DNA of 64,000 nt, taken from contig JAUJYN010000029.1 in the NCBI GenBank assembly GCA_030737835.1, positions 1,662,871 through 1,726,870 of the forward strand. The letters are read 5' to 3'. The notes under the pieces are model-generated. The model made no database searches. It was not told where the DNA came from and saw only the letters and a list, made by a program, of their open reading frames with translations. Positions within the stretch are counted from its first letter, which is position 1; the number at the start of each line of letters is the position of its first letter. Made by a program: the position numbers and the translations under genes. The DNA comes from Acorus gramineus. Lineage: Eukaryota > Streptophyta > Magnoliopsida > Acorales > Acoraceae. This document shows positions 357-48,583 of this stretch, piece by piece.

Positions 357-1285
357 TGTAGACACCCCAATTTTGACCGTCCAAAGAAAAGAAATTTACT
401 TCAAGTAACATTTTTAAATGACCACATTTGGACCATATAGAAAACTACCCAAAGTTGAATAGATATGAAAATAGAAGAAAAAGACAAAACTGTCGGAAGG
501 TGGCTACTTGAAACTTGTTGCCCCTCCTCAGACGGCTACTTTCCAGTAGCAGTCGGACGTAGAGACAAGGTGGCTACTTGAAACTAGCCGCCCCTCCTCA
601 GACGACTACTTTCAAGTAGCCGTCAGACATCTTTTCCCAAATCCATAAAGAAACCTGCAGAAATTAGAAGGCTACCTGAAACCAGCGGCCTCCCTAAAGA
701 CGGCTAGTTACAACATGCCCCCCCCCCCAACCGCTTCCCAGAGATGGGACATAAATCAGCAGTTAATGCTGATTGGCAGGTCATCATGGGGGCGGCATCT
801 TGAAAGTAGCCACCTGTTGTGCCTGTGTCATTTGGAGCACTCTGATTGAAAATTTGGGTACATAATTTTTTTCCTAGAAGTTATGTATTCCTGATTTGGT
901 ATTTGGATTTGATTTTTTTAAAATCCAAGATGAAGAGGTTTAAATATGATTTTATTATGAGACGTCCAGTTTTGAGTTAGCTTTCGTACAAAGGTGGAAT
1001 TAGGTCAACTGGATTCCTGTAGTAAAAGTTATGGGTATTTTACCAAGTATACCCCGGGGAGGGAAATTCTGACAGCAGCCCTGTTCTATGTTTAGCTCTA
1101 ATTTCGGAATAGCTGGAGAGATTAGTTGATCTTGGCATGAACATAAAAGTTGTAGATAATCTTCTTAGCTTTCCAACGGACTTGGAATTGTGCAATTCGG
1201 AGCTATATTGAGGAAGTTATGGCTGTTCCAGTGAAGCATGCGCAGAATTTCTAAGTCAGGGATGAAATGGTCATTTCCCATCCCT

Positions 1286-1395
1286 CTTTAGATATTTATG
1301 TGTGCAACCAAAAATATCTTCTCTCTCTCTCTCTCTCCCTCTCACTTCCACGCCCATTTTTCTTGGGCTCTCTCTTCCTCTCTCTCAAGCACCCT
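1286..1395 (+). promoter_or_regulatory. Candidate core promoter of the element A LTR
   Basis: A TATA-like stretch (TAGATATTTATG) is followed about 30 bases later by a long CT repeat and pyrimidine patch, the arrangement common around plant transcription starts. The same arrangement recurs in the 3' LTR at about 7798-7910. The start site is inferred, not demonstrated. Confidence 0.4.
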
Positions 1396-1785
1396 AGGTG
1401 TTTGTTGAAATGTCACAAAGAGAAGGAGATGGTGGAGAAGAGAAGGGTTGTCATGTGTTGTTGTTGTTGATCTTCTCTTCTCTCAAGCTCCCCCTCATGA
1501 TCCTTCCCCCCTGATTTTCAGCCAAGGAGGAGGCTGAGGAGAGGCTGAGGAGGTGGTGGTAGTGGTGGTGGCGGTTGAGGTGGTCGCGGGTGCATCGAGG
1601 GCCCCCGAGCCTCCCCCTTTCATTTCCCCTCCAAAGGTGAGCCTTTCCCCTTCTTTTCTTGATTTTTATGGCTTAGGGTTGGTTGGGAGGGTCATGCATG
1701 TTGGGTAGATGTGTTAGGGTGTGTGTGAGGTGTTGGGAAGGGTTAAAAAGGGGTTAGGGTAGGCTGGGCGGGAGGAGGGGGTTGT

Positions 1786-2480
1786 CTGCATGCGTGCGCG
1801 AGCAGGCGTGCGCACAGGCGGGCGCGCAGACGCGCGCAGGTGCGTGCGCGCGGGTGCTGGCACGAGCATGGGTGAGCGCGGGCGTGCGCGAGCATGCGTG
1901 AGCGCGGAGCAGTGCACCTGGGCATGCGCCTGGGCGCGGGGCTGGGGACCAATGCGCGCGCGTGCGTGCGCGTGCTGGGGCGTGCGAGCAAGGTGATGCG
2001 CGGGGGGCGCAGTGCGCGCGGGTACGCGCTGGGCTGGACGCGCGGTGCGCGCGGGTGCGCGTGGAGTGGTCTCGCGGGTGCGCGCGGGTGCTGGCGCGAG
2101 CGGGGGTGCGCACGGGCGCGCGCGAGCGTGCGCGAGCGCAGAAGAGTGCGCCTGGGCATGCGCTTGGGCGCGTGGCTGGGGACCAGTGCGCGCGCGTGCG
2201 TGCGTGCATGTGCATGTGCGTGCTGGGGCGTGCGAGCAGGGTGCTGCGCGGGGGGCGTAGTGCGCGCAGGTACGCGCTGGGCTGGACGCGCGGTGTGCAC
2301 GGGCGCGCGCGAGCTTGCGCGTGCGTGTGGTAGCGCGTCTAGGTGCGCGGGCAGGCGTGTGGCCGTGGGCCGAGGGTGCTGGGGTGCGTGCGTGCGTGCG
2401 GAGGGCCATGCGTGTGGCTGCCCGAGGGTTCGGGTAGGTGTCGGGGCACTCGGACTCGCGTGCGTACGTGCGTGCTCGCA
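1786..2480. repeat. GC-rich alternating purine-pyrimidine block in A 5' LTR
   Basis: About 700 bases made mostly of GCGCGC, GTGCGC and CGTGCG strings, dense in CpG. Bases 1921 onward and 2155 onward repeat with a 234-bp offset, so the block contains a tandem duplication that the 3' LTR lacks. The composition removes stop codons on both strands, so long open frames here are not evidence of coding. The block sits between a GT donor-like site and the AG of the 39-nt segment, which places it inside a putative intron. Confidence 0.85.
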
Positions 2481-2586
2481 TGCGTGCGAGCCCGTATGCA
2501 TGCTTGTCCGAGTATTGGGTATTTCTAATGATTTCTATGTGTAAATTGTGTTGTTACTCACCAAATTCGATGCCCCTACCTTGCAG

Positions 2587-2625
2587 ATCTCGTCGGATGG
2601 GATGCGCGAGGTCCCGGGTTGTAAG
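2587..2625 (+). other. Candidate 39-nt microexon in A 5' LTR
   Basis: Preceded by ACCTTGCAG and followed by GTGAGT after AAG, matching good plant acceptor and donor sites. A branch-like CTCAC lies about 30 bases upstream. The same segment recurs at 8893-8931 in the 3' LTR and, at 36 nt, in B-type LTRs. Both lengths are multiples of three. Splicing is inferred from sequence alone. Confidence 0.45.
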
Positions 2626-3913
2626 GTGAGTGGTTTGATTCCAATCCCCCCCCTCTCTAGGGATGCGCTCGACCCGCATAGACGCGCGTCGCGCATCGAT
2701 GGGGCCCCCTAGCTATAATATGTAAATATTATGTAACGCATGTTATAATATGAAGAAACCATTCCATATTAGACCTTGTATGCTAGGGATATGCATCCAT
2801 ATACCATGTATAGAGGCCCATACATGCCTAGACACCATGTCCCTTGATTTGAAAGCCCCGACCTACGCATGTTTCCCATTTTGTTTAAATTTATTTAAAT
2901 CAAATGTGAGTATGTTGTTGTAAGCATGCCTTAGAGAATATTATAACCTTGTTGTTATAATATATGTTTCCCCGCATCTTAGTTATGCGCCCTGGAGGAA
3001 TTCTTGAGAATTCATGACATTAGTAGTGTTAGAAATCGTTGTCGACGGATCCAACAGGATCGTACGCGCGTGAGTAGGCTGTCTTCTCCTTTTGGTTGGA
3101 TCCGATGTAGGAACTCCCCGGCGTTGGCTGACCTGACAGAGGGCTCCCGTCCGTAGGTACCTCCGATGTGTCGGACAGTACTGATAGCGGGAGTGGACTA
3201 GGTGGAGGCTACGAGGGTGGGAAAGGGCTACCGGGTGGACCAGGGGTGGAGAGCGGTCTAGTCTGTCCCAAAAGACCCATGACACCCCTAAAGGGCGAGC
3301 GTGGGGTGGATCGGCGATGTTACGACCCTCTAATTTGTGTAGTTACTCCCGTATAGGGACTATGACTATTTTAAGGTTAATATGAGTGTGTTGATTGTTG
3401 TTATGCCTGTGTTTGATATCTCGATAAGCGAGTATCGAGAGTGGTTGTTTTCCATTGGGTTTCGCTTTGCGAACATGGGATCGTTCTCCCCTTCGTTGGA
3501 TCCGATGTAGGAACTTCTTGGGTTTAGCTGTCCTGACAGAGGGCTCCCATCCGTAGGTACCACCGATGCATTCGGAAGAGTACTGATCGTGGGAGTATAC
3601 CAGGTAGAGGCTACCCGGGGAAAGGGCTACTGGCGGACCAAGGGTGTAGAGCAGTGAGTTGAGGAGATCGGGTTGTAGATACTACCCGGGAGAGGGTTAA
3701 CGAATGATGTTACGGGCGTGGGAATCGTTCTCTCTTCCATAAGTCCCAAGAGTCTCCCTCCAGGAGTGAGGGTAAGGATGAGGTGAAGATTATCGCCGCG
3801 TGACCCATTCGTTGTTCGACCGTTCCCATAGTTGGTGGGTCCGGTCTTGAATCGATGTTCAAGGACATCGTTGGGCGATTATCTATATGTAGATGATCCA
3901 GTAGTGTTGAGTA

Positions 3914-4042
3914 GACCAGTAAATCCGGGTCTCTTCGACCGACGGTATGGTCTCTAGACCAGTAAATCCGGGTCTCTTCGACCGATGGTATGGTCTCTAG
4001 ACCAGTAAATCCGGGTCTCTTCGACCGACGGTATGGTCTCTC
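3914..4042 (+). repeat. Three tandem 43-bp repeats in A 5' LTR
   Basis: Three nearly identical units start at 3914, 3957 and 4000, each opening GACCAGTAAATCC and ending in GGTATGGTCTCTA. Each unit has internal dyad symmetry around TCTTCGACCGA and around TCTAGACC. The same triplet occurs in the 3' LTR at 10210-10338, so it predates this insertion. Confidence 0.9.
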
Positions 4043-4621
4043 CCCATAAGTCCCAAAAGACTCCCTCCGGGAGTGAGGGTGGGGGTGAGGTTGGTCGCGC
4101 CGCCGCGTGACCCAGTTATCCATGGGTTTCTACCCATGTTTTCCTTGAAAGGAAATTGATTATGTATTGAACTATAGAATGGTGATTGGTTTCAGCCACT
4201 CACTGAGCTTGTAGCTCACCCCTCACATACTGTTTCTTTTCAGGGGCAGTGTTGGGCGTGGAGCTGGAGCTTCCTGTGGCGTGGTCTTATGGGCGTGGAG
4301 CGTTCTGTCGGCGGGTGGCGTGTGCGAGGCTGTCAGCATTCCTAGAGTCATTTTATGCTTTGTAAATCGTGCATGTGGCACAGGTTGTATTTTCTTTGGT
4401 CTAGACTTGGCTTTCACAGGACATTGATTGTGTATTCGGGTCTGTAATATTGTTTTTGATTTACAGACATTGTTATATATTATGCTTCCGCTTTTCAGTC
4501 AGTTATCATTATCTTGCTTGCCGCCTTGTGTATTGTTATTAGTGTCCTTATTGACCTCAGGTATTGATAGCTGATATTTATTATTGCCACGTCTCGGGGA
4601 CGGCCGCCCTGGGGCGTGACA

Positions 4622-7326
4622 AAAGTTGGTATCAGAACCTGGTCCTGTCAGAGCCTAAGTCTAGTCGTATAGATGATGAGTCGTAGGATTGTCATCCGAG
4701 TACTCTTGTTTTAGAAGTTATCTTAGGTTGCTGACATGCCTCCTCGCATCCGTTGACGTGGACGTGACCCCCTGGACCCACCCTTAAGTTGTCGACTGGG
4801 TCGACTGGTTAGGGTCAGTTGTTAGATCTCTTGTTGTGGGATTAAGGCTTGGGTAGGAGATTCCAGCCCAGTAGTATGATAGTGATGAATTGGTCACAAT
4901 TTCTAAGGTATGGATTGTGTCTCGATGATGGAGCTCTTTCCCGTGTATCGGTATCGCTGGTAGCCATGGAGTTTGCGTGCTGCGCCAGTGTAAAGTGTCA
5001 AGGATGTGGCGTATTGCTCATTAAGGGATGATGTCTTCTTCTAGTCTTCCTACTCAGGATTAAGGGGCCTTGCAGGGTCAGCGTTGAGACCTGGGCTAGG
5101 GTACTCCGTGTTCCTTGTTTGGTTGTCGGGATATCCTATATCGGACCTCATGGTGCCCTCCCAACGTCTCTTTTCCCAGTCAAGGAATACCTTAGAAGCA
5201 TCCAATTGATGGTGGATTTTTCCCTCTCACTAGGAAGGTGCTGTAGCGAGTGGTGATGCGTACGATCGGGATTGGGTGCGTCCTATTGCAGCTCAGTGGG
5301 CGATCGCTAGTGGACAGGGTTCCATAGTGGCATCTGGAGTCGCTTCGATATATCATTGTGCGTTGTAGCTGCCCGGTTGAGGCCAGAGCCCTGTGAGGTG
5401 CTCCCAGATACTATGCTTGTGGTGCGCCCATATGGCAGAGATAGTAGGCTTGGGAGGCTACCAGGTAGAGGCCACACCGGGAGAGTGCTGCTAAATGATG
5501 TCAAGAGCGTGGACTCCCCGTGATGAATCTGCCCATGGAGTGCAGGATGCTGGAGTTCCAATGGTTGTAGATGAGCGACCTATCTCTGGCGGCATGTGAA
5601 GCACAGTTGTGGATACTATCGCGTTTTGCCCCACATTGGTCGCGAATAAGGAGACGCGATGCTAGCGTTTGTGATGGGACTCAACCGCCCTATCAGATAG
5701 ATGACGTCACATAGGCATTGTCGAGGTTTGATGACCTTTTATTGCGTGTCTTGTGGATTAAGTGCGGTTGAGTGACTTACCAAGCGTGTAAGTGTCATCA
5801 TGAGCGCCAGACATGCTCGAGGAGCAGAATCTGGACTTAATTGTTCATGGTGTTGTTTTGATCTCCCCTAGGTTGAAGATCAATTACCTTTGCCGCGAAT
5901 CGATGATCTATTTGACCAGCTCTGGGAGCGAGTGTCTGCTGTTAGATCGATCTTCGCACAAGGGTACCACAAGTTAGAGATCCGAGAGTTGGACATCCCG
6001 TAGATGGCCTTTCGTGACCGTTCAGGCACTACAAGTTTTAAGTACTGCCGTCGGGGTTGACGAATGCGCTGGTTCGTGGATCTCAAAAGTTTATTGGGCC
6101 TCCGTGGACTACTTTAAGGTAGTCTTCATTGAGATTGCTGTGGTGTGATGAAAAAGGCGATATGGGTGACCTTGTTTCCCCAGGTGGGCATGCCCTCAGG
6201 CAAAGCTCGAGAATCATCATTGAGTGGAAAGCGTCAGTCCATCGAGATTCCTCATGTGACGTGGGAGTGGGTTATCAGGGATTGTTGCGGACTCGCTAAT
6301 GTCACATTCGGGTCACGATGCCGTCTAGGTGATCATTGACCGACTGACTAAGTCCGCGCTTCCCTCCCTAATCCAACTCATTGAGTCTCTGGATGCCTTG
6401 ACGTGGGTTTTCACCTTCGCGATTGTTCGTCTTCATGGCACTCCAGTCGGCGCTATTTTCGGTTGAGACGCGAGGGTTACTTTGAGGTTGTGGCGCAGCC
6501 TTTGGCGCGAGCCTCCATTTAAGTATAGCGTTTCATCGCCGATGGACAGCCAGACAAAGAGGACGATTCAGACCTTGGAGGACATGCTAAGTGCCTGCGT
6601 GCTCGATGATGAGGGCAGTTGGGTGAGGCACCACCCATTTGTTGGGGTATGCCTGCAAGACGACTGCCATTCGAGCACCCAGATGGATCTGTGAAAGGCA
6701 CTCTACAGGCACAGTTTTATACCTCCCTTGTGTTGGGACGGTTGAGGAGCGCCAGTTGGAGGGGCCATAAGTTAGTTGTTTGACCTTGCGGTGGCCAGGT
6801 TGGTTCGTGTGTACATCTGCACCTCCCAGAACCGACAGAAGGGCTACCCAGGTCATTGTCGCCAGGGGCTTACCTTTGGGTTTGGTGACCATATTTTCAA
6901 GAAGGTGTCCTGGTTAAAGGGCACCCTCTGTTTCGACGTTTGGGGCACGCTGAGTTTGCTCTTTAATGGGACCATTTCTCGTCATTGAGTGGATTGGGGA
7001 GGTGGCTTATCATGTGACCTTTCCCCCACAGCTGGCTCATGCCCACGACGTCGTCCTTGTCCAATGGCCGAGGCGTTATGTCCACGATCCTGCTCATGTC
7101 TCCTCGAGGTGGATTTGTCGTTCGTGGAGCAGTGGATCGAGGTCAAGGACAAGCATGAGAAGAGGCTCCACGCTAAGACCGTTCCTTTGATTATAGTGTG
7201 TTGGTAGCGCCAGTCCGGTGCAAGGACCACTTGGAAGCAAAAGGTCTATGCGTGATACTTGCTATATTCGGTCTTCCCTTTGGGCTTCCTTAAATTTCGA
7301 GGACTAAATTTCTAAGGGGGGAAGAA
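4622..7326 (+). mobile_element. Element A internal region: decayed, chimeric gag-pol remnant
   Basis: The interior begins with a primer-binding site complementary to tRNA-iMet (TGGTATCAGAACC, 4627-4639) and ends with the polypurine tract AAGGGGGGAAGAA (7314-7326). A gag-start-like peptide is seen near 4737, RT-like sequence ([10 protein letters not shown]) near 5890, integrase-like sequence near 6180-6700 and a pol tail near 6850-7200. The whole carries many breaks and is about half the length of the B interior. Segments near 5059-5170 and 5430-5520 resemble B-type and A-type LTR sequence instead of gag or pol, so it is a patchwork. It is best read as a non-autonomous derivative moved by enzymes from a relative. 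Confidence 0.8.
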
Positions 7327-8279
7327 TGTTGTGCCTGTGTCATTTGGAGCACTCTGATTGAAAATTTGGGTACATAATTTTTTTCCTAGAAGTTATGTAT
7401 TCCTGATTTGGTATTTGGATTTGATTTTGTTAAAATCCAAGATGAAGAGGTTTAAATATGATTTTATTATGAGATGTCCAGTTTTGAGTTAGCTTTCGTA
7501 CAAAAGTGGAATTAGATCAACTGGATTCTTGTAGTAAAAATTATGGGTATTTTATCAAGTATACCGGGGAGGGAAATTCTGGCAGCAGCCCTGTTCTATG
7601 TTTAGATCTAATTTCGGAATAGCTGGAGAGATTATTTGATCTTGGCATGAACATGAAAGTTGTAGATAATCTTCTTAGCTTTCCAACGGAATTGGAATTG
7701 TGCAATTCGGAGCTATATTGAGGAAGTTATGGCTGTTCCAGTGAAGCATGCGCAGAATTTCTAAGTCAGGGATGAAATGGTCATTTCCCATCCCTCTTTA
7801 GATATTTATGTGTGCAACCAAAAATATCTTCTCTCTCTCTCTCTCTCTCTCTCCCTCTCACTTCCACGCCCATTTTTCTTGGGCTCTCTCTTCCTCTCTC
7901 TCAAGCACCCTAGGTGTTTGTTTAAATGTCCCAAAGAGAAGGAGATGGTGAAGGAAGAAGAGAAGGGTTGTTCATGTTGTTGTTGATCTTCTCTTCTCTC
8001 AAGCTCCCCCTCATGATCCTTCCCCCTGATTTTCAGCCAAGGAGGAGGCTGAGGAGAGGCTGAGGAGGTGGTGGTAGTGGTGGTGGCGGTTGAGGTGGTC
8101 GCGGGTGCATGGAGGGCCCCCGAGCCTCCCCCTTTCATTTCCCCTCCAAAGGTGAGCCTTTCCCCTTCTTTTCTTGATTTTTATGGCTTAGGGTTGGTTG
8201 GGAGGGTCATGCATGTTGGGTAGATGTGTTAGGGTGTGTGTGAGGGGTTGGGAAGGGTTAAAAAGGGGTTAGAGTAGGC

Positions 8280-8800
8280 TGGGCGCGCGCAGGGGGTTGT
8301 CTGCACGCGTGCAAGCGCAGGCGGGCGCGCAGACGCGCGCAGGTGCTTGCGCGCGAGCGCGCGGGTGCAAGCGGAGTGGGCACACTGGTGCGCGCGGGTG
8401 CTGGCTCGAGCGGGGGTGCGCGCGAGTGCGCGCGGGCGCGCGCTAGCGTGCGCATGCGCGAAGAAGTGCGCCTGGGCATGCGCCTGGGCGCGGGGTTGGG
8501 GACCAGTGCGCGCACGTGCGGGCGCGTGCGTGCATGTGCTGGGGCGTGCGAGCTGGGTGCTGCGCGGGGGGCGCAGTGCGCGCGGGTACGCGTTGGGCTG
8601 GACAAGCTGTGCGCGCGGGCACGCGCAAGCGTGCGCGTGCGCGCGGCATCGCGTCTGGGCGCGCGGGCAGGCGCGCGGCAGTGCGCCGAGGGTGCTGGGG
8701 TGCATGCGTGCGTGCGCGTGCGGGGGGCCATGCGTGTGGCTGCCCGAGGGTTCGGGTAGGTGTCGGGGCACTCGGACTCGCGTGCGTACGTGCGAGCCCG
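8280..8800. repeat. GC-rich alternating block in A 3' LTR
   Basis: About 520 bases of CpG-dense alternating purine-pyrimidine sequence, equivalent to 1786-2480 but without the 234-bp duplication. Open frames here on either strand are composition artefacts. Confidence 0.85.
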
Positions 8801-8892
8801 TATGCATGCTTGTCCGAGTATTGGGTATTTCTAATGATTTCTATGTGTAAATTGTGTTGTTACTCACCAAATTCGATGCCCCTACCTTGCAG

Positions 8893-8931
8893 ATCTCGTC
8901 GGATGGGATGCGCAAGGTCCCGGGTTGTAAG
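8893..8931 (+). other. Candidate 39-nt microexon in A 3' LTR
   Basis: Second copy of the 2587-2625 segment, again bounded by TTGCAG before and GTGAGT after, with one or two base differences inside. Confidence 0.4.
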
Positions 8932-11900
8932 GTGAGTTGTTTGATTCCAATCCCCCCCCCCTCTCTAGGGATGCGCTCGACCCGCATAGACGCGCGTCGC
9001 GCATCGATGGGGCCCCCTAGCTATAATATGTAAATACTATGTAACGCATGTTATAATATGATGAAACCATGCCATATTAGACCTTGTATGCTAGGGATAT
9101 GCATCCATATACCATGTATAGAGGCCCATACATGCCTAGACACCATGTCCCTTGATTTGAAAGCCCCGACCTACGCATGTTTCCCATTTTGTTTAAATTT
9201 ATTTAAATCAAATGTGAGTATGTTGTTGTAAGCATGCCTTAGAGAATATTATAACCTTGTTGTTATAATATATGTTTCCCCGCATCTTAGTTATGCGCCC
9301 TAGAGGAATTCTTGAGAATTCATGACATTAGTAGTGTTAGAAATCGTTGTCGACGGATCCAACAGGATCGTACGCGCGTGAGTAGGCTGTCTTCTCCTTT
9401 TGGTTGGATCCGATGTAGGAACTCCCCGGCGTTGGCTGACCTGACAGAGGGCTCCCGTCCGTAGGTACCTCCGATGTGTCGGACAGTACTGATAGCGGGA
9501 GTGGACTAGGTGGAGGCTACGAGGGTGGGAAAGGGCTACCGGGTGGACCAGGGGTGGAGAGCGGTCTAGTCTGTCCCAAAAGACCCATGACACCCCTAAA
9601 GGGTGAGCGTGGGGTGGATCGGCGATGTTACGACCCTCTAACTTGTGTAGTTACTCCCGTATAGGGACTATGACTACTTTAAGGTTAATATGAGTGTGTT
9701 GATTGTTGTTATGCCTGTGTTTGATATCTCGATAAGCGAGTATCGAGAGTGGTTGTTTTCCATTGGGTTTCGCTTTGCGAACATGGGATCGTTCTCCGCT
9801 TGGTTGTTTTCCATTGGGTTTAGCTGTCCTGACAGAGGGCTCCCATCCGTATGTACCACCGATGTATTCGAAAGGGTACTGATCGTGGGAGTATACCAGG
9901 TAGAGGCTACCCGGGGAAAGGGCTACTGGCGGACCAAGGGTGTAGAGCGGTGAGTTGAGGAGATCGGGTTGTAGATACTACCCGGGAGAGGGTTAACGAA
10001 TGATGTTACGGGCGTGGGAATCGTTCTCTCTTCCATAAGTCCCAAGAGTCTCCCTCCAGGAGTGAGGGTAAGGATGAGGTGAAGATTATCGCCGCGTGAC
10101 CCATTCGTTGTTCGACCGTTCCCATAGTTGGTGGGTCCTTTCTTTAATCGATGTTCAAGGACATCGTTGGGCGATTATCTATATGTAGATGATCCAGTAG
10201 TGTTGAGTAGACCAGTAAATCCGGGTCTCTTCGACCGACGGTATGGTCTCTAGACCAGTAAATCCGGGTCTCTTCGACCGACGGTATGGTCTCTAGACCA
10301 GTAAATCCGGGTCTCTTCGACCGACGGTATGGTCTCTCCCCATAAGTCCCAAAAGACTCCCTCCGGGAGTGAGGGTGGGGGCCGCGTGACCCAGTTATCC
10401 ATGGGTTTCTACCCATGTTTTCCTTGAAAGGAAATTGATTATGTATTGAACTGTAGAATGGTGATTGGTTTCCAGCCACTCACTGAGCTTGTAGCTCACC
10501 CCTCACATACTGTTTCTTTTCAGGGGCAGTGTTGGGCGTGGAGCTGGAGCTTCCTGTGGCGTGGTCTTATGGGCGTGGAGCGTTCTGCCGGTGGGTGGCG
10601 TGTGCGAGGCTGTCAGCATTCCTAGAGTCATTTTATGCTTTGTAAATCGTGCATGTGGCACAGGTTGTATTTTCTTTGGTCTAGACTTGGCTTTTACAGG
10701 ACATTGATTGTGTATTCGGGTCTGTAATAATGTTTTTGATTTACAGACATTGTTATATATTACGCTTCCGCTTTTCAGTCAGTTATCATTATCTTGCTTG
10801 CCGCCTTGTGTATTGTTGTTGGTGTCCTCATTGACCTCAGGTATGGATAGCTGATATTTATTACTGCCACGTCTCGGGGACGGCCGCCCTGGGGCGTGAC
10901 ACCACCCCTCACTGGGCGGCTAGTTACATGTAGCCACCCCATGTCTGGACAAATTTTCACAACAAATATATGAATTTCTTTGGGGTGAAGTTTGCTTAAA
11001 CCACTCTATTATCCAATCCATGCTATTGTCCAATGAATAACCCTATGCATCCCTTTCTACTATAAAGGGGGGGGGGTGTGGTGAGAAAGAAAGTGTGGAC
11101 AAATTCATTTCTAAGTGTGTGTTAGAGAGAAAGAGAAAGAGAGAGAGTGAGGGAGAGAGCCTTAGTTGAGAGAGAAGGAAAGCCATTTCCTACCAAATTC
11201 AACTCTCCATAAACCCCCCTCTAACCATTGTCCTAAACCTCTCCTAGCCCTAGCCAAACAAATTCAAATTCCTACCTAGGTGTTGTCCAAATCTAGAAGA
11301 AGAAACCACCAACACCACTTTCAATCCTCACTACCACCACCCTAGCCAAGCCAAAACAGTTCCGTACCTAGGTTCTGCCCAAATCTAGAAAACCAAGAAC
11401 CAGGTACCAGGCGGCTAGTCCAAACCAGTCGTTGAACTCAGATGGCTAGGTTCAAGTAACCGGCTTATCCTCCCTCCCATGTGTCAGCTGTCACACCCCA
11501 GGGCGGCCATCCCCGGGATGCGGCAAGGGTATACATGATATCAGCAGTCAATACACGAGATCAATAATATACCATAAACAACAGCTAAAAAGACAACACA
11601 GACAACAAAGAGGCAGACATGATGTATACACAGAAAGCGGAAGCTAAAAAGACTGAATCTATAAATCAACAACACGTTACAGACTCGATACATAATCATA
11701 TGTCCTGTGAGAGCATATATATACACATACATCCAAGTACAATCCGAACTGGGTGCCCAAGCACAGAAATATATACATACAATAAAAGAAGGATGCTGAT
11801 GGCCTCAAAACTCGAGGGACGTGGCGCTACTCCGCTACTGGTGCAGTCGCTCGGGAAGCTCCTCCTTCAAGTCCGCCTCAGTAATCACTGGAGAAAAATA

Positions 11901-12944
11901 TTATACGAGGGGTGAGCCACACGCTCAGTGAATAGCACAACCCATGCATCACAATTTATATTAACCACATTTAATCAAGCAAAATCCTAAAAGTGGCATG
12001 AACAACAAAATCCGGGGGTTCGTTATATCGCCGAACCACCACACCCTCACCCTCACCCTCACCCCTCAATAGGTGACAAAGGATGTTGGGACTTTATAGG
12101 CTGATAATCATCCTTACACAATCCAGTGGGTCGCCACATCGCCGGCCCACCACACCCTCACCCTCACCCCTCAATATGGTGACATGGGATATTGGGACTG
12201 ACTAGGATGTTGGTCACCCTTGGTCCACCGATAGTCTCTCCCCACTCCGTAGGCCGTTTGGCCACCCCCACATTCAGCACAGTCCGTCCCAAATCAGGAG
12301 GTGCCTACTGATGGGAGCCCCTGCACGGGACAGCCTTTCTAACGCCGGGGTAGTATCTACACAGATCCAACGAAGGGAACAGAACAGCCCATCCATACGC
12401 ATATGATCCACTCGGATCCGCCGACATCACATCTCAATAACTCAAATGTCCTGAATTCTTCAGAATTCCTCCAGCGCGCATAACCAGGATGCGGGGAAAT
12501 TATATATAATAACAATAGGGAAAAGAAACCTTGGGAGGGCAACCTGAGGTCCCGATATAGGACATCCCACCAACCAAACAAGGAACACGGAGTACCTAGC
12601 CCGGGTCTCAATGTTTACCTCGCAAGGCCCCCTTATATTCCCTAAGGCATGCTAACAATATCATAGGCTTGCATTTAATTAAAAAAATCAAACTAATAGG
12701 TCGCATGCATAGGTTGAGGCTTTCCTAGCATGATAATAAGGTGACAGGATGCACGGCTCTTACACATATCCTAAGGGTGCAAGTCCCTAACCTACAAGTC
12801 TAGGGTGGCATGCATTCTACACATTAATCATGCTTACATAGATTATATATTAATCAGTTAATATTAACTATGTGCCCCAGGGGAGGACGGTATACGCCCA
12901 AGTGCATATAGCGCCTCCCAACTGGGTTGGGTTGTCCCACTCAC

Positions 12945-12980
12945 CGGTAACCGGGTCGTCGCGCGACCGTCTGTCAAGAT
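12945..12980 (-). other. Candidate 36-nt microexon in B 3' LTR
   Basis: On the minus strand the segment starts ATCTTGAC after an AG dinucleotide and ends in CCG before GTGAGT. It is colinear with 2587-2625 of A. Splicing is inferred, not shown. Confidence 0.4.
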
Positions 12981-13084
12981 CTCCATGACAGGGTAACCAA
13001 CTGGGTGAGTAAAATACACAAAAATACCACAAAATACACAAAAATACTATAAAAATACCCAACACTCGGACAAGTGTACATACG

Positions 13085-13680
13085 GCCTGTACGCACGCGA
13101 GCCCGAGCACTCCGACTCACTCCCGAACCCCCGGCAACCACCCGCACGGCCACCCGCCCCCAGATGCACCGCCGCGCCCCAGCCCGGGCACCCAGGCGCC
13201 CTGCCAACCCCTGCCCGCACGCCAGGACACGCCGCCGAGCTCCCCGGGTGCACCGCGCGCTCACTGCGCCCCATCGCAGCAGCCCGCACGTACACCGCAC
13301 ACCCCGCGCCCAGCTCCTCTCCCCGTGCGCACCCCGCGCGCACCACCCTCGCCTAATCGCGCCCTCGCCTCGCTCTGCGCGCACCCTGCGCGCACCACCG
13401 GCTCGCCCAGCGCTCCATCGACTCGCCGCGCGCGCCCAGCGCGCCTGCGCCTCTGCGCAGCGCTCCGCGCGCACGCCCCCGCACGGCACCCTGCACGCAG
13501 CGCCCCATCGCCCACGACCAGCGCCCAGCACACCCGCGCCCAGCACCCAGCACGCGCGCCCAGGACACGCGCCAGCACGCCCTCCAGCTCCACCCGAGCG
13601 CACGCCCGTGCGCGCGCGCGCGCACGCACGCGCGCACCCTGCCAGCTGCTCCACCTGCTGCGCCTGTGCTGCTGCCTGTG
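13085..13680. repeat. GC-rich block in B 3' LTR
   Basis: About 600 bases of CpG-dense CGCGCACGC-type sequence, the reverse-strand equivalent of the block in A. It produces long Arg/Ala/Pro-rich frames on both strands that I regard as artefacts. Confidence 0.85.
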
Positions 13681-14670
13681 CTGCCATCCTGCCCGGACAG
13701 ACAACCACCCTGCCCGAGCCACCCCACCTCCTCTATCCGGCCACCAATGGCCTCCAACAGCCACCAATCACCCCCACAGCCACCAACACCCAAACCCACC
13801 CTCCTAACAAGCATCTAAGCAAGAAAAGGAAGGAAAGAACCCTTACCCAAGGAAAGGAGAGGAAAGGAAGGGAACCGGAAGCTCTTCGTGCACCGAAACG
13901 CCTCCCCAAAGCCTTCCACCACCAAGATCTCCTCCTAGCCAAAGAAGGGCCGAAATCTGAGGAGAAGAGAGGGGGCAAGAGGGGGCTAAACACCTCGGAA
14001 TTCGAATCCAAACTACCGGTAGATAGATCGGGACCGGATCTAACCTTTCTATGCTTTGTTTTAAGGTTCAAGCACTCTAGGTGGCTCAAAACCAAGAAAA
14101 GGAGAGGGGGAGAGAGAAAACAAATTTGAGAAGATGATGAATAGTGTAGGGCAACTTTTTAGATTCACTTAAATAAGTCAACCCACTTAATTAGTTAACT
14201 AGGTTAAGGCTTGATTAATTAGGTTAAGTGGGTTTAAGTGGGATTTGACTTGGGTCAACCCAACCACACAAAAAACAAAAAGGGTTGACCAAGTCATGGG
14301 CCCACTTTGACCGAGTCAACTCTCCCAATGACTTCTCGCTCGGTCAAAACCCGGATACGCCCCGGAACTGTGAAATTCTGAAACGTACCGGAATTCGATG
14401 AAATTTTCGTGAGTGGCTTGAAATGGCACCAGGACACATAATATGCAGTTAGATTTTCAATCGGAGTCCTCAAACACAGGACGATAGCTAACAGTCCAAA
14501 ATTTTGCGGTTCCGATCGAAAAATGAAAAAAACTCAAAAACTGCCAAAATGCTCCAATGGTTACCAGCAGGCAAAAAGTGACACATATATAACATTCTCC
14601 CCCCCTTAGGAAATTTTGTCCTCAAAATAAATACAAGAACATCTAAGAAGGGAAAAGATGCGGATACGCG

Positions 14671-17600
14671 TCACGCATGGCGTCCTCGCTCCCAAGTGGC
14701 CTCGGCACCGGAACGGTGCTGCCATCGCACCTTGACCAGCTGGACGGTCTTGGTGCGGAGCCTCTTCTCGCGGCGGTCCAGGATCTCAATCGGCTGCTCA
14801 ACGAAAGACAAGTCCGGCTCGAAGACGAGCGGCTCGAACGGGATGACGTGAGCAGGATCGTGGACATAGCGCCTCAGCTGCGAGACATGGAAGACGTCAT
14901 AGGCCTGAGCCAACTGTGGGGGCAGAGCTATGCGATAGGCCACCTCTCCAACTCGCTCGAGGATGAGGAACGGCCCAATGAAACGCGGACTCAGCTTGCC
15001 CCGCACACCGAAACGGAAGATGCCCTTCATCGGGGACACCTTCAAGAAGACATGGTCACCAACCTCGAAGGCGAGCTCACGGCGACGACGGTCGGCGTAG
15101 CACTTCTGACGACTCTGAGCGACTCGGATACGCTCGCGAATCGTCTTCACCATCTCTGAGGTCTGGTGAACGATCTCTGGTCCCTCCAACTGGCGCTCTC
15201 CGACCTCGTCCCAACACAGGGGGACCTGCAGCTGCGGCCATAGAGCGCCTCGTAAGGAGCCATCCGGATGCTCGAGTGGTAGCTGTTGTTGTAGGCAAAC
15301 TCCACCAACGGAAGGTGCCTCTCCCAACTGCCCCCAAAATCGAGAACACAGGCTCGCAGCATGTCCTCAAGAGTCTGGATCGTCCTCTCCGACTGGCCGT
15401 CCGTCTGCGGATGAAACGCTGTACTGAAATGGAGGTTCGTACCAAGGGCGTGCTGGAGGCTACGCCAGAACCTCGAAGTAAAACGCGCGTCTCGATCGGA
15501 AATGATGCTGACTGGAGTGCCATGGAGACGGACAATCTCGAACTGCGCCAGGGTGTCCAGAGAATCGGTGAGTCGGATGGGGAGGAAATGAGCAGACTTC
15601 GTCAGCCGGTCGACGATCACCCAGATGGCATCGCGACCCGAACGTGACCTCGGCAAACCCGAGACGAAGTCCATGGTGATCTGCTCCCACTTCCACTGAG
15701 GGATCTCAATGGACTGCAGCTTCCCCGCAGGGCGCTGATGCTCCGACTTCACCTGCTGGCATACTAGGCATCGGGCAACGAAACGGGCAATATCCGTCTT
15801 CATCCCGCGCCACCAGTAGCCACGACGAAGGCCCCTGTACATCTTCGTGCCACCAGGATGCACTGTGTACCTCGAACGATGGGCCTCGTCCAGAATCTTC
15901 CGCTTCAGCTCTGCGTCGTCGGGAATGCACACTCGGCCTCTGAATCGCAGGATCCCGTCCGCGTGAATCTGGTAGTCCGGACGCTCGCCCCGGGCGACGC
16001 CTTCAGAGAGGACTATAAAATGCGGATCCTGAGCCTGAGCCGTGCGGATATCGTCGAGAAGGACTGGCTGCACCACTAGCCTGGCCAAAAAGCCACCTGC
16101 AGGAGTCTCTCGAACACTGATCCAGCAAGCGGCCTCCTCCAGAAGCCTCCAACGACGGACAGCCATGTGGGCGGCCATGCCCAAGGGCTGCCTACTGAGC
16201 GCATCTACCACGACATTCGCCTTACCCGGATGGTAAGCGATGTCACAATCGTAGTCCGTCAGGAACTCAACCCAACGTCTCTGACGCATGTTGAGCTCCG
16301 GCTGGGACTGCAGATATGTCAAGCTCTTATGATCGTAAAGAGCTCGAACTCCTCTCCATAGAGGTAATGCCTCCACATCTTCAGCGCAAAGATGATCGCT
16401 GCCAACTCAAGGTCGTGGGTGGGGTAATTCTGCTCATGGGGCTTCAACTGACGAGACGCGTAAGCCACAACCTTACCGTGCTGCATCAGGACGCAACCCA
16501 CACCCAACTGCGATGCATTCGTGTAAACTGCGAACCCACCACTCCCAGACGGAAGGGTAAGAACTGGCGCTGAGGTGAGCCTTCGCTTCAGCTCCTGGAA
16601 GCTCTCCTCGCAAGCAGGGGACCACTCGAACCGAACATCCTTCCGAGTGAGGCGGGTAAGAGGAACGGCTATCTTCGAGAAACCCTCGACAAACCTCCTG
16701 TAATAACCCGCCAAGCCCAAGAAGCTCCGAATCTCTGTGGGGTTCGACGGTCGACGCCAATTCGACACGGCGAGCGTCTTCTCCGGGTCCACAGATATGC
16801 CCTCACCGGAAATCACATGGCCCAGAAAGGCCATACGCTCCAACCAGAACTCGCACTTGCTGAACTTGGCGAACAACTGATGTCTGGCCAAAGTCTCCAA
16901 GACAGTGCGAAGATGGTGAGCGTGCTCCTCAAGACTCCTCGAGTACACCAATATGTCATCGATGAATACTACCACAAAGGAGTCGAGGAAGGGCCGAAAC
17001 ACCCGGTTCATCAGATCCATGAAGGCCGCCGGCGCGTTCGTCAACCCGAATGGCAGTACTCTGAACTCGTAGTGCCCATACCGGGTGCGAAAGGCCGTCT
17101 TCGGAATGTCTGACTCCCGGATCTTCAGCTGGTAGTACCCTTGCGGAGATCGATCTTGGAAAAGACACGCGCTCCCTGGAGCTGGTCAAACAGATCGTCG
17201 ATCCGCGGCAACGGGTACTTGTTCTTCACTGTCCGTTTATTCAGCTGCCTGTAATCAATACACAGCCGCAGCGAACCGTCCTTCTTCCGGACGAACAGGA
17301 CAGGGGCTCCCCACGGAGAAACACTCGGACGTGCGAAGCCCTTCTCCAGCAACTCCTCCAACTGCTCCTTGAGCACCCTCAGCTCTGCAGGGGCCATCCG
17401 GTACGGAGCTCTCGAAATCGGCTCGGTCCCCGGAATCAGATTGATCTCAAACTCGATCGCGCGATCCGGCGGTAATCCCGGAAGATCATCGGGGAAAACC
17501 TCGGGATACTCTGCCACGACCGGAGTCTGACTGATATCTGCCTGCAGCGGTGCATCCTCCTGAGCAATGTACACTAGAAAGCCCTCGCATCCTCCCTGAA

Positions 17601-18230
17601 GGAGTCTACACGCCTGCATGGACGACACGAACCCCAAAGGGGCTACGTCATGATCGCCCACGAACTGGAAGGACCTCCGACCCGGAAGGTGGAAAGACAC
17701 CGACTTGGCAAAACAGTCGATGCTGGCATGACTAGCTGCAAGCCAATCCATTCCCAGGATGGCATCAAAGTCCGTCATCGCGAGCTCCACCAACTCCACT
17801 GGAAACTCATGCTCCGCAACCTCTACCGTACACCCTCGGTACACAGAACGGAGGAGAATACGGTCTCCTACGGGCAATGATACCTCCAAGATAGCATCTA
17901 AAGGAGCGGACGCCACGCCCGTCCGTCTCGCGAAAGCGGGAGACACGAACGAGTTTGTGGCTCCGAAATCAAACAATACATATGCAGGGAGCTGGGAGAT
18001 CTGAACAATACCTCTGACCACGCTGCCTGATGCCTGAGCCTCCTCTGCCGAAAGCGCTGCCACTCGGCCCTGAACAAACTGAGGCTGAGGAGCAGGGGCA
18101 CGCCTCGCCGGCTGCGCTGGCTGCCTCCTCTGGTCAGCACGGCCCCCCTGTGGCTGCTGCTGCTGACGCTGAGGCTGCTGCTGCGGCTGGCGCTGAGGCT
18201 GCTGCTGCTGAAATGACTGCTGCTGCAACT
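14671..18230 (-). mobile_element. Element B pol region (PR-RT-RH-INT-chromodomain)
   Basis: Protease-like [10 protein letters not shown] lies near 17920-17985. RT follows from about 17410 ([23 protein letters not shown]) to [11 protein letters not shown] near 16940-16980. RNase H-like sequence ([15 protein letters not shown]) is near 16310-16540, and the integrase core ([43 protein letters not shown]) near 15330-15670. A chromodomain-like tail (VQLVKVRWQHRSGAEATWE) ends near 14680. RT before integrase makes it Ty3/gypsy, and the tail makes it a chromovirus of the Tekay/Del type. The frame is broken. Confidence 0.9.
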
Positions 18231-18249
18231 GCTGCTGCTGCGGAGGCAT

Positions 18250-19425
18250 CACTCGGGGTCGGCCAGCGTCGGGGCAATTATACAAGATATGCCCGACGCG
18301 CTGACAGTGATAACAGCGCCGCGTCTCTGGTCGCCTCGCCTGGACTGGCACTGCTGCGATGGGTGCTGGACCTCGCACTGGCACCGCATCTGCTGGAGGA
18401 GAGGCAGCCGCTGACCGATCAAAGCGGGGCCTCTTCTTCTTGCGCTGTCCCTGGTCCTGGCTCCTGGGTGGCCTCTGGTCTGCCGAAGGGGTCGAAGCCC
18501 TCACGAGGATCCCGAGGTCTCGCTCGACTGTCTTCGCTCGAGACACTAAGTCGGAGTACCTCGTGAATGCCTGGGAGGTAACGTGCACCCGAATGGCGCT
18601 GAGACCGAGCTCGAATCGACGGCACCTCGTCTCCTCGTCCATCACCAAAGCTGGAGCGAATCTGGACAGCCTCGTGAAGCGCGTGGAGTAGTCAGCGACA
18701 GACATAGAGCCCTGCGTCAGCTGCTCAAACTCCTGCATCACTATCTGTCGCGTCGAGACGGGAAGTACTCCTCCAAGAAATACCTCCGGAATCCCGCCCA
18801 TGTAAGCTGCTCCACTCCCTCCGGGATGTCCACTGATCTAGTAGCCCACCAGTCGGCGGCGCTACCCTTCAGCATAAAAGTGGCCAGGGAGACTCGCTGG
18901 CGGTCGGTGCAAAGCATGGTCGAGAAGATCGTATCCACCTCCATCAACCATCGCTCTGGGGCAAGAGGATCCTCCATCTGACCCTAGAACTCGGGAGGGT
19001 GGAGCTTCAAAAAGGCTGCGCGGCCACTCTGCTGCACTCGCGCTGCAGCCTCTAGCCCCATCTCCCTCTCCTGGGGATCCTGAACTCTGACCGTCGGACC
19101 ACCACGGGGACTGGGGGTACATCGGGTACCACAGGTGGATCTGCCACCAAGGGAACCTGCGGAACTGCCTCGCGGGCCGCCCGCAGCTCCTGAATCTCCC
19201 GTGCCTGATCTGCCAACACTCTGGTCTGGGCCTCCAATGCCCTGGTCTGCGTCTCCACCAAATCAGCTATCCGCGCAAACGCGCGCTCCCAGGCAGGAGG
19301 CTCCTGCGCTGATCCTGGCCTCACGGCTGAGGACTCACCAATAGCATCCTCGCCCCTGGTAGGTCCGGAAACCTCCAAGGGTCGAGAGGGACCACGTCCG
19401 CGCCGTCCTCTGCGAGGAGGCATAT
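18250..19425 (-). mobile_element. Element B gag region
   Basis: Capsid gene of the chromovirus. It begins MPPRRGRRGRGPSRP near 19423, has a coiled-coil-like segment rich in ETQTRALEAQ repeats, a retrotransposon gag domain near 18560-18980 ([30 protein letters not shown]), and a CCHC zinc knuckle ([14 protein letters not shown]) near 18260-18320. A glutamine-rich tail follows. The order and motifs match B2 closely. It is a fossil copy with breaks. Confidence 0.85.
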
Positions 19426-19543
19426 CAGCAACCTAAGAAAACCAGACACTAGGATCAGAATACTCATATAGAAATCCTAGGACTCATCTCTACGAAAAAG
19501 AAGACAATTGGCTCTGACAGGACCAGGCTCTGATACCAACTTT

Positions 19544-22540
19544 TGTCACGCCCCAGGGCGGCCGTCCCGGGACGCGGCAAGGGTATACATGATATCAGCA
19601 GTCAATACAGGAGATCAATAATATACCATAAACAACAGCTAAAAAGACAACACAGACAACAAAAGGGCTGACATGATGTATACACAGAAAGCGGAAGCTA
19701 AAAAGACTGAATCTGTAAATCAACAACACTTTACAGACTCGATACATAATCATATGTCCTGTGAGAGCCAATATATACACATACATCCAAATACAATCCA
19801 AACTGGGTGCCCAAGCACAGAAATATATACATACAATAAAAGAAGGATGCTGATGGCCTCAAAACTCGAGGGACGTGGCGCTACTCCGCTACTGGTGCAG
19901 TCGCTCGGGAAGCTCCTCCTTCAAGTCCGCCTCGGTAATCACTGGAGAAAATATTATGCGAGGGGTGAGCCACACGCTCAGTGAATAGCACAACCCATGC
20001 ATCACAGTTTATATTAACCACATTTAATCAAGCAAGCCTCAAAGTGGCATAAACAACACAAATTCGGGGGTTCGTTACATCGCCGAACCACCACACCCTC
20101 ACCCTCACCCCTCAATAGGTGACAAAGGATGTTGGGACTTAATAGGCTGATAATCATCCTTACACAATCCAGTGGGTCGCCACATCGCCGGCCCACCACA
20201 CCCTCACCCTCACCCCTCAATAGGTGACATAGGTATTGGGACTGACTAGGCTGTTGGTCACCCTTGGTCCACCGATAGTCTCTCCTCCACTCCGTAGGCC
20301 GTTTGGCCACCCCACATTCAGCACAGTCCGTCCCAAATCAGGAGGTGCCTACTGATGGGAGCCCCTGCACGGGACACCTTTCTAACGCGGGTAGTCTCTA
20401 CACGGATCCAACGAAGGGAACAGAACAGCCTATCCATCGCATATGATCCACTCGGATCCGCTGACAACACATCTCAAACTCTAATGTCTTGAATTCTTCA
20501 GAATTCCTCCAGCGCGCATAACCAAGATGCGGGGAATATATGATAATAATGAGGAAAAGAGACCTTGGGAGGGCAACCTGAGGTCCCGATATAGGACATC
20601 CCGCCAACCAAACAAGGAACACGGAGTACCCTAGCCCGGGTCTCAATGTTTACCTCGCAAGGCCCCCTTATATTCCCCAAAGCATGCTAACAATATCATA
20701 AGCTTGCATTTAATTAAATAAATCAAACTAATAGGACGCATGCATAGGTCGAGGCTTTCCTAGCATGATAACAAGGTGACAGGATGCACGGCTCTTACAC
20801 ATATCCTAAGGGTGCAAGTCCCTAACATACAAGTCTAGGGTGGCATGCATTCTACACATTAGTCATACTTGCATGGATTAGTTTATAACAGTTAATACTA
20901 ACTATGTGCCCCAGGGGAGGACGGTACACGCCCAAGTGCATGTAGCGCCTCCCAACTGGGTTGGGTTGTCCCACTCACCGGTAACCGTCCGTCAAGATCT
21001 GCAAGACAGGGTAACCACTGGTGAGTAAAATACACAAATACCACAAAATACACAAAAATACTCTAAAAATACCCAACACTCGGACAAGCGTACATACGGC
21101 CTGTACGCACGCGAGCCCGAGCACCCGACTCACTCCCGAACCCCCGGCAACCACCCGCACGGCCACCCGCCCCCAGATGCACCACCGCGCCCAGCCCGCG
21201 CACCCAGGCGCCCTGCCGAGCCCCTGCCCGCACGCCTGGACGCGCCGCCGAGCTCCCGGGTGCACCGCGCGCTCACTGCGCCCCATCGCAGCAGCCCGCG
21301 CGACACCGCACGCCCCGCGCCCAGCTCCTCGCCCCGCGTGCACCCGCGCGCACCACCGCTCGCCTAATCGCGCCCTCGCCTGCTCCGCGCGCACCCCGCG
21401 CGCACCACGGCTCGCCCAGCGCTCCATCGACTCGCCGCGCGCGCACAGCGCGCCTGCGCCTCTGCGCAGCGCTGCGCGCACGCCCCCGCACGGCGCCCTG
21501 CACGCAGCGCCCCATCACACCCGCGCCCAGCGCCCAGCACACGCGCCCAGCACGCCCTCCAGCTCCACCCGAGCGCACGCCCGCGCGCACGCCCGCGCGT
21601 ACGCACGCGCGCGCCCGTCCGCTGCTGCGCCTGTGCTGCCTGTGCTGCCATCCTGCCCGGGACAGACAACAACCCTGCGAGCCACCCCACCTCCTCTATC
21701 CGGCCACCAATGGCCTCCAACAGCCACCAATCACCCCCCCCCCCCCCACCCACCAACAACCCAACCCACCCTCCTAACAAGCATCTAAGCAAGAAAAAGG
21801 AAGGAAAGGAGCTTACCCAAAGGAAGGAGAGGGAAGGAAGGGAACCGGAAGCTCTTCGTGCACCGAAACGCCTCCCCAAAGCCTTCCACCACCAAGATCT
21901 CCTCCTAGACAAGGAAGGGCCGAAATCTGAGGAGAAGAGATGGGGTAAGAGGGGGCTAAACACCTCGGAATTCGAATCCGAAACTACCGGTAGATAGATC
22001 GGGACCGGATCTAACCTTTCTATGCTTTGAGTTTTAAGGTCCAAGCACTCTAGGTGGCTCAAATCTAAGAAAAAGAGAGAGGGGGAGAGAGAAAATCTAT
22101 TTGAGAAGATGATGAATAGTGAAGAGCACCTTTTTAGCTCTCACTTAAATAGTCAACTCAACTTAATTAGAGTTAACTAGGGTTAAGGCTTGATTAATTA
22201 GGTTAAGTGGGTTCTAAGTGGGATTTGACTTGGGTCAACCCAACCACACAAAAAGACAAAAAGGGTTGACCAAGTCATGGGCCCACTTTGACCGAGTCAA
22301 CTCTCCCAATGACTTCTCGCTCGGTCAAAACCCGGATACGCCCCGGAACTGTGAAATTCTGAAACGTACCGGAATTCGATGAAATTTTCGTGAGTGGCTT
22401 AAAATGGCACCAGGACACATAATATGCAGTTAGATTTTCAATCGGAGTCCTCAAACACAGGACGATAGCTAACAGTCCAAAATTTTGCGGTTCCGATCGA
22501 AAAACGAAAAAAACTCAAAAACTGCCAAAATGCTCCAATG
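19544..22540 (-). repeat. Element B 5' LTR, outer end missing
   Basis: 2997 bp matching the 3' LTR, with GC block about 21100-21640, CCCTCA arrays near 20095 and 20200, and hydrophobic open frame 19595-19801. Its AG/GTGAGT segment near 20979 is shorter than in the other copies. The copy stops within the promoter-distal end at CCAATGG, where A-type LTR sequence takes over. Confidence 0.9.
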
Positions 22541-22596
22541 GATAGCTGATATTTATTATTGCCACGTCTTGGGGATGGCCGCCCTGGGGCGTGACA
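22536..22596. other. Recombination (or assembly) junction: B LTR joined to A LTR end
   Basis: B 5' LTR sequence ending AATGG passes without a break into GATAGCTGATATTTATTA, the last 56 or so bases of the element A LTR, ending GGGGCGTGACA at 22596. ATGG is shared by both parents (10843-10846 in A), giving a short microhomology at the join. Confidence 0.8.
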
Positions 22597-23183
22597 CCAC
22601 CCCTCACTGGGCGGCTAGTTACAAGTAGCCACCCCATGTCTGGACAAATTTTCACAACAAATATATGAATTTCTTTGGGGTGAAGTTTGCTTAAACCACT
22701 CTATTATCCAATCCATGCTATTGTCCAATGAATAACCCTATGCATCCCTTTCTACTATAAAAGGGGGGGGGTGTGGTGAGAAAGAAAGTGTGGACAAATT
22801 CATTTCTAAGTGTGTGTTAGAGAGAAAGAGAAAGAGAGAGAGTGAGGGAGAGAGCCTTAGTTGAGAGAGAAGGAAAGCCATTTCCTACCAAATTCAACTC
22901 TCCATAAACCCCCCTCTAACCATTGTCCTAAACCTCTCCTAGCCCTAGCCAAACAAATTCAAATTCCTACCTAGGTGTTGTCCAAATCTAGAAGAAGAAA
23001 CCACCAACACCACTTTCAATCCTCACTACCACCACCCTAGCCAAGCCAAAACAGTTCCGTACCTAGGTTCTGCCCAAATCTAGAAAACCAAGAACCAGGT
23101 ACCAGGCGGCTAGTCCAAACCAGTCGTTGAACTCAGATGGCTAGGTTCAAGTAACCGGCTTATCCTCCCTCCCATGTGTCAGC
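22597..23183 (+). repeat. Second copy of the A-flanking C1 LTR segment (587 bp)
   Basis: Same length as 10902-11488 and differing at about two positions by eye, including CCACC, the right target duplication of A. It ends TCAGC and then continues into C1 LTR sequence with no B insertion, so it is the empty form of the B site. Copy one stops at B; copy two is followed by the rest of the C1 LTR (23184-23472). Confidence 0.9.
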
Positions 23184-31700: not shown

Positions 31701-31858
31701 ACATAATATGCAGTTAGATTTTCAATCGGAGTCCTCAAACACAGGACGATAGCTAACAGTCCAAAATTTTGCAGTTCCGATCGAAAAACGAAAAAAACTC
31801 AAAAACTGCCAAAATGCTCCAATGGTTACCAGCAGGCAAAAAGTGACACATATATAAA
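28774..31858 (-). mobile_element. B-type solo LTR number 1
   Basis: 3085 bp from TGTCACGCCCC to the TATATAA-type end, flanked by target duplication TAGGG (28769-28773, 31859-31863), with no internal sequence. A solo LTR arises by recombination between the two LTRs of a full element. It has the GC block (about 30310-30900), a 36-nt AG/GTGAGT segment (30199-30234), CCCTCA arrays near 29330 and 29410, and a hydrophobic open frame at 28870-29064. Confidence 0.9.
30199..30234 (-). other. Candidate 36-nt microexon in solo LTR 1
   Basis: Minus-strand CTTGCAG before and GTGAGT after; colinear with 12945-12980. Confidence 0.4.
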
Positions 31859-48547: not shown

Positions 48548-48583
48548 ATCATGACGGACGGTCACGCGACGACCCGGGTATTG
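48548..48583 (+). other. Candidate 36-nt microexon in B2 5' LTR
   Basis: Colinear with 56157-56192 and the B-type copies; ends ATTG before GTGAGT. Confidence 0.35.

Follow-up and report, generated by a model that had tools for sequence, protein, structure and literature searches.

Retrotransposons have to split one transcript between translation and replication, and the locus described here raises the question of whether the answer may be encoded in the long terminal repeat (LTR) itself. The window, meaning the whole stretch of 64,000 nucleotides of Acorus gramineus DNA that was analysed, contains many Ty3/gypsy chromovirus elements with LTRs of about 2.7-3.8 kb, for which the initial annotation had suggested a spliced leader of three exons, the second of them a microexon. 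In thousands of copies the genome preserves a record of the RNA forms that were copied, and the assembly searched for this purpose comprises 398.6 Mb in 137 contigs. The reading that is considered probable from these copies is that of a leader split within the LTR, in which intron 1 is lost before copying and the RNA spliced at intron 2 would be a messenger barred from reverse transcription.

Elements of the window and their predicted leader

The elements and single LTRs on which the analysis is based were delimited as follows.

815-10901, + strand: element A, with the target duplication CCACC at 810-814 and 10902-10906
815-4621, + strand: 5' LTR of A (TGTTGT...GTGACA), from self-comparison, termini and duplication
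7327-10901, + strand: 3' LTR of A, from self-comparison
47128-60680, + strand: element B2, with the target duplication CTGAG at 47123-47127 and 60681-60685
47128-49864, + strand: 5' LTR of B2, from self-comparison, termini and duplication
54793-56865 and 60060-60680, + strand: 3' LTR of B2 in two parts, interrupted by the - strand LTR at 56866-60059
about 11489-22541, - strand: element B1, from self-comparison
28774-31857, - strand: single LTR, from self-comparison
39454-42540, - strand: single LTR, from self-comparison
56866-60059, - strand: single LTR nested in the 3' LTR of B2, from self-comparison

By their sequence, B1 and B2 can be assigned to the Ty3/gypsy chromoviruses on the basis of Pfam matches to gag, protease, RT, RNase H and an integrase placed after RT, in a scan that covered these two elements and in which the chromodomain is weak (16.5 and 20.3 bits against a cut-off of 25.1) and the integrase core likewise falls below the Pfam cut-off. 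The long LTRs, together with their ...GGGGCGTGACA / TGGTATCAGAGC ends, suggest a putative membership of the Tekay/Del-like clade. In both A and B2 the LTR ends in GGGGCGTGACA, and five bases further starts TGGTATCAGA, presumably the primer site for the initiator methionine tRNA. The paired TG...CA termini, primer site, purine tract and 5-bp duplication that characterise LTR retrotransposons are recognisable in A, in B2 and in a further element, L068-L069, which is described below. The ends of the LTR nested in B2 (56866-60059, - strand) suggest a 5-bp duplication, AGTAT. B1 is flanked by a direct repeat of 650 bp (10843-11492 and 22538-23187, 99% alike) which contains the end of the 3' LTR of A with its flank; it far exceeds the length of a target duplication and is likely to stem from local duplication or recombination.

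The proposed leader would be non-coding and would consist of exon 1, a GC-rich intron 1 of 0.5-1 kb, a microexon of 35-39 nt, intron 2, and an exon 3 running through the LTR end and the primer site to gag. Its parts in the window are listed below.

1330-1636, + strand: exon 1 of A, start guessed, 3' end from spliced copies
1637-2586, + strand: intron 1 of the A 5' LTR (GTGAGC...TTGCAG), 950 nt, GC 0.69, from spliced copies and composition
8152-8892, + strand: intron 1 of the A 3' LTR, 741 nt
47925-48547, + strand: intron 1 of the B2 5' LTR (GTAAGC...TTGCAA), 623 nt, acceptor AA
2587-2625, + strand: exon 2 of the A 5' LTR, microexon of 39 nt
8893-8931, + strand: exon 2 of the A 3' LTR
48548-48583, + strand: exon 2 of the B2 5' LTR, 36 nt
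56157-56192, + strand: exon 2 of the B2 3' LTR, preceded by an intron 1 of 598 nt
12945-12980, - strand: exon 2 of the B1 3' LTR, intron 1 of 866 nt
20979-20998, - strand: exon 2 of the B1 5' LTR, shortened by a deletion
30199-30234, - strand: exon 2 of the single LTR at 28774-31857, intron 1 of 865 nt
40907-40942, - strand: exon 2 of the single LTR at 39454-42540, intron 1 of 1006 nt
58446-58481, - strand: exon 2 of the nested LTR at 56866-60059, intron 1 of 827 nt
2626-4243, + strand: presumed intron 2 of A (GTGAGT...TTTTCAG), from conserved borders
48584-49466, + strand: presumed intron 2 of B2 (GTGAGT...TTTTCTCCAG), from conserved borders
4244-4736, + strand: presumed exon 3 of A, which reaches the presumed gag ATG by way of the LTR end at 4621 and the primer site TGGTATCAGA from 4627

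The eight full-length exon 2 segments of this list are those that the initial annotation had pointed out, and each is oriented with its own LTR and followed by GTGAGT. Its statement that most copies follow an AG also agrees with the window, where AG precedes seven of the eight and AA precedes the one at 48548, and the upstream donor (1637 in A, 47925 in B2), the CTCACC motifs and the downstream CAG acceptors are present as it had described them. The B copy that it found not to fit the length is that of the B1 5' LTR, in which exon 2 has been reduced by a deletion to about 20 nt, its borders being intact. The hint it had seen in segment lengths that are multiples of three did not survive a wider sample. 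A collection of 117 LTR rows, chosen by similarity and hence non-random, represents 113 distinct places, four of the rows being duplicates. Where GTGAGT is present (111 distinct places), exon 2 measures 36 nt in 62, 37 nt in 27, 39 nt in 20, 38 nt in one and 35 nt in one. Frequent exons of 37 nt rule out length as a sign of coding, and exon 2 is taken as non-coding because its length and its 3' end both vary. Skipping of exon 2, seen as a join of exon 1 to exon 3, was absent among the matches listed (40 for each joined query, A and B). There is no sign of a leader trans-spliced from a separate small RNA, and a comparison of the window with Rfam yielded nothing that reached the gathering score.

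Intron 1 and the copies that lack it

The 5' border of intron 1, positioned by alignment without searching for GT, reads GTRAG in all 37 distinct unspliced places (40/40 rows) of a sample picked by similarity; this count leaves out the long unspliced loci L006, L008, L032, L053 and L058 and the B1 5' LTR. The donor hexamers are GTAAGC (18), GTGAGC (8), GTGAGT (6), GTAAGA (2), GTAAGG (2) and GTAAGT (1), the exon 1 ends in front of them vary (CTTGG, TTTGG, CCAAG, CAAAG and others), and the length of the intron ranges from 510 to 1006 nt. Among 82 distinct unspliced places the acceptor reads AG at 80 and AA at two, one of which is the window's own B2 5' LTR, a point that counts against the preferred reading. 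As a check, the initial annotation had proposed comparing the conservation of the borders with that of their flanks, and in this similarity-picked sample GT and AG reach 1.9-2.0 bits (weighted) against a flank mean of 1.0-1.1, with information also high at their neighbours (TTGC before and ATC after the acceptor, G before the donor), an outcome in keeping with that check. The GC content of the intron is 0.67-0.69, with repeats of the GTGCGC type (1637-2586, 47925-48547). Plant introns are usually U-rich, and so GC-rich an intron 1 is atypical for them, which also speaks against the preferred reading.

New LTRs obtain their R and U5 regions from the RNA's 5' end, and therefore both LTRs of a new copy made from spliced RNA should be without the intron. 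A genome-wide pattern search for joined exon ends, allowing at most three mismatches, returned exon 1/exon 2 junctions at 20 A-type and 11 B-type places, while controls with reversed patterns returned none. All 31 places were read, and each has exon 1 sequence upstream and the fusion at the predicted position, with the donor of intron 2 directly after exon 2 (altered in L028 and L063). A 32nd place, L129, came from the A query made of joined exons 1, 2 and 3, and it is exact too, so that all 32 copies read fuse at the predicted exon 1/exon 2 position. Under the same mismatch limit 3423 A and 5869 B matches to the unspliced acceptor followed by exon 2 were counted, which puts the spliced form at less than 1% of all copies, a rarity that weighs against the preferred explanation.

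One such element is complete. The LTRs L068 and L069 form the pair of a single element (C78:712807-720062), both are without intron 1, and they are 98.4% alike; the element has a TTATG duplication, its 5' LTR is followed by a primer site, and its 3' LTR is preceded by a purine run. Spliced RNA was reverse-transcribed and integrated here. The interior of this element (L130, C78:714800-717000) is about 2.9 kb long compared with 4.9 kb in B2, and its first 1.5 kb match the gag side of B2 at 83%. With so short an interior, its gag side like that of B2, the element is probably non-autonomous and would have been mobilised by proteins from elsewhere.

Could these copies have lost intron 1 as DNA, by deletion between short repeats, or could they represent the ancestral state before its insertion? 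Both borders do carry AG, a repeat of 2 bp, and the search patterns were aimed at the exact junction and so favoured exact cases. However, the join is exact in 32 of 32 copies, from many lineages of two diverged families that otherwise carry intron 1 at the same place, and the gapped queries with joined exons, among whose 80 listed matches 15 cross from exon 1 to exon 2, gave 15 exact crossings out of 15 (14 of them already among the 31, the other being L129). Random deletion was rejected as the origin in view of exact joins in so many lineages, and this explanation as a whole is scarcely credible. Removal from the RNA remains the preferred account, and natural retro-processed copies in both families show, at the level of genomic DNA, that intron 1 is genuine. 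With its GU-AG borders and its precise removal in RNA-derived copies, intron 1 has the properties of a spliceosomal intron. The three-exon leader of the initial annotation is supported in part: the first join (1636/2587 in A, 47924/48548 in B2) is strongly borne out by 32 copies, and the second (2625/4244) has conserved signals, with no processed copy found by the genome searches.

Trees of spliced and unspliced LTRs place the changes of state at 11 in A (49 rows) and nine in B (67 rows), of which branches with support of at least 95 alone force five and seven, respectively. Shuffled labels need on average 15.9 changes in A and 10.4 in B, so the spliced state is somewhat clustered in A. Where spliced copies group together with support, they do so in twos (L009/L010, L011/L014, L017/L023, L025/L026 and L063/L067). 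Small groups without intron 1 are possible because some forks are unresolved, one joining L018, L019, L020 and L028 and another lying around L062, L068 and L069; the first four are inseparable as individual events, which counts against the preferred reading. No large group without intron 1 appeared in the sampled trees of 49 A and 67 B rows. These are quick trees, with 40 rows filled to about a quarter, with long branches for L016, L021 and L062 and with three places present twice under two names; L007, identical in place to L025, was omitted, and recombination between LTRs can blur the branching. Forty fetched relatives (20 of 39 listed for L013 and 20 of 38 for L068) all retain the end of intron 1 before exon 2. 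On these trees, the loss of intron 1 via RNA has happened repeatedly in both families. The sister copies L009/L010, L025/L026 and L017/L023 share a contig at distances of 31-51 kb, and they are either the LTRs of one element pushed apart by nested insertions or the products of local duplication.

Intron 2 and the two predicted RNA pools

The borders of the second intron look as good as those of the first, and its splicing is putative. In the similarity-picked sample, exon 2 gives way to GTGAGT at 111 of 113 distinct places (115/117 rows). The acceptor stretch GCTCACCCCTC...CAG is common to A and B, with the similarity ending at AG; this AG is present in all ten A stretches that align across it (18 were fetched) and in 37 of 38 mapped B rows, nine further rows being unmapped. 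Across the whole genome, patterns for the exon 2/exon 3 junction gave no match in A and none in B. Judged by test junctions that were assembled from known copies, these patterns would detect 9 of 12 (A) and 29 of 38 (B), the misses in A being 37-nt exons, and those for exon 1/exon 2 would detect 7 of 7 (A) and 14 of 33 (B); at equal rates about 15 (A) and 20 (B) exon 2/exon 3 matches would be expected, a figure that comes from small and non-random sets. With the joined queries, for which 40 matches each were listed, 13 (A) and two (B) span exon 1/exon 2, the remaining 27 and 38 cover exon 3, and no crossing from exon 2 to exon 3 was seen among the matches listed for either query. Three A matches that start seven bases before exon 3 were read as normal intron ends with TTTTAAG for TTTTCAG.

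The absence of such copies is equally expected if intron 2 is never spliced. It has thus been considered whether only intron 1 is real, the leader having two exons and GTGAGT and CAG being conserved for other reasons or unused, a view favoured by the finding of no exon 2/exon 3 copy with patterns of the sensitivity given above. Against it stand a GTGAGT that is constant at 111 of 113 distinct places next to variable last bases of exon 2, and an acceptor with CTCACC common to A and B beyond whose AG the similarity stops, and it is judged unlikely. Alternatively, the exon 2 donor could join an acceptor past the primer site, giving a product that is never reverse-transcribed. This accounts both for the lack of intron-2-less copies and for the constant donor but leaves the conserved acceptor in the LTR without explanation, and it is regarded as highly improbable. 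An intron 2 removed from the messenger only is preferred because the donor is constant and the acceptor is common to A and B.

In the preferred mechanism, intron 1 is cut precisely from RNA that is later reverse-transcribed, giving new copies with LTRs that lack it. Intron 2 would also be spliceosomal, the RNA without it would serve as messenger, and the intron would hold a packaging or dimerisation element needed by the genomic RNA. Splicing would in this way divide one transcript into two pools. With the start of exon 1 guessed, the leader measures 3407 nt in A and 2296 nt in B and would be shortened by splicing to 839 and 790 nt, respectively, and the two introns contain 62 of the 74 (A) and 39 of the 52 (B) ATGs upstream of the gag ATG. 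Easier scanning can be at most a partial reason for splicing, because 12 (A) and 13 (B) upstream ATGs persist after it. The stricter formulation, a two-step code in which intron 1 is optional in copied RNA and the removal of intron 2 commits the molecule to being translated and excludes it from reverse transcription, is evenly balanced between being right and wrong on the genomic copies. If it is true, the genome is its natural record, in which LTRs without intron 1 were found and LTRs without intron 2 were not.

Conserved RNA structure was considered for a block of intron 2 (23 rows). Its consensus energy is low (-51.0 compared with -28.5 +/- 3.8 in 30 column shuffles with neighbours separated), but the covariation term of +3.5 is worse than that of the shuffles (+1.9 +/- 0.7) and gives no support, and the candidate was rejected.

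Related systems and the apparently mosaic LTRs

In HTLV and BLV the splice donor lies in the R region of the LTR and the packaging signal lies after the major donor, and in retroviral leaders generally the genomic RNA is selected by what splicing would remove. The present elements are alike in having a donor inside the LTR and an intron that would separate genomic RNA from messenger, but differ in that their LTRs hold a whole intron and a microexon, and a packaging role is putative here. Penelope-like retroelements likewise retain introns, but they are another class of element without such an LTR leader.

Among plants, the available text of a 2025 review describes LTR elements as generally intron-free, with exceptions that include Ogre and EVADE (PMC12786077), and Bagy2, Ogre and CRR are named as further spliced plant elements by the authors of the work on BARE (PMC3735527). 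As far as these sources describe them, Ogre, BARE and EVADE resemble the present elements in having spliced retrotransposon RNA, but their intron is in the coding part (in Ogre, splicing occurs between ORFs; PMC6317226), whereas here it is in the LTR, so that each element holds it twice, and genomic copies without intron 1 are present. The accessible part of the BARE report states that messenger and packaged RNA are kept separate and that attempts to amplify DNA copies of the spliced RNA from barley failed (PMC3735527). By analogy, the reading of intron 2 proposed here resembles both retroviral leaders and these RNA pools of BARE. A Ty element with an inserted intron lost it precisely on transposition, the classical proof of an RNA intermediate, as the review recounts in its available text (PMC12786077); the loss is equally precise here, but the intron of Ty was man-made and the present one is natural, lies in the LTR and is retained by most copies. 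A search of titles and abstract openings, which took in few subscription papers and is no proof of absence, found no plant LTR reported to contain an intron. What sets the present elements apart among intron-bearing LTR retrotransposons is the position of the intron within the LTR. Splicing inside LTRs means that an LTR pair can change its structure within one round of transposition, and an LTR of this kind could supply a neighbouring host gene with a complete promoter together with a first exon and its splice donor.

The LTRs also look mosaic, as if by recombination between families, because an intron 2 block and exon 2 disagree on the kinship of B2. The block at 2919-3290 in A is 86-87% alike to 48905-49281 in B2, and between B2 and B1-type LTRs it is just about 68-75% alike, although exon 2 groups B2 with B1. 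Short tandem units (GACCAGTAAATCCGGGTCTCTTCGACCGACGGTATGGTCTCTA) occupy 3940-4045 of the A 5' LTR, within intron 2.
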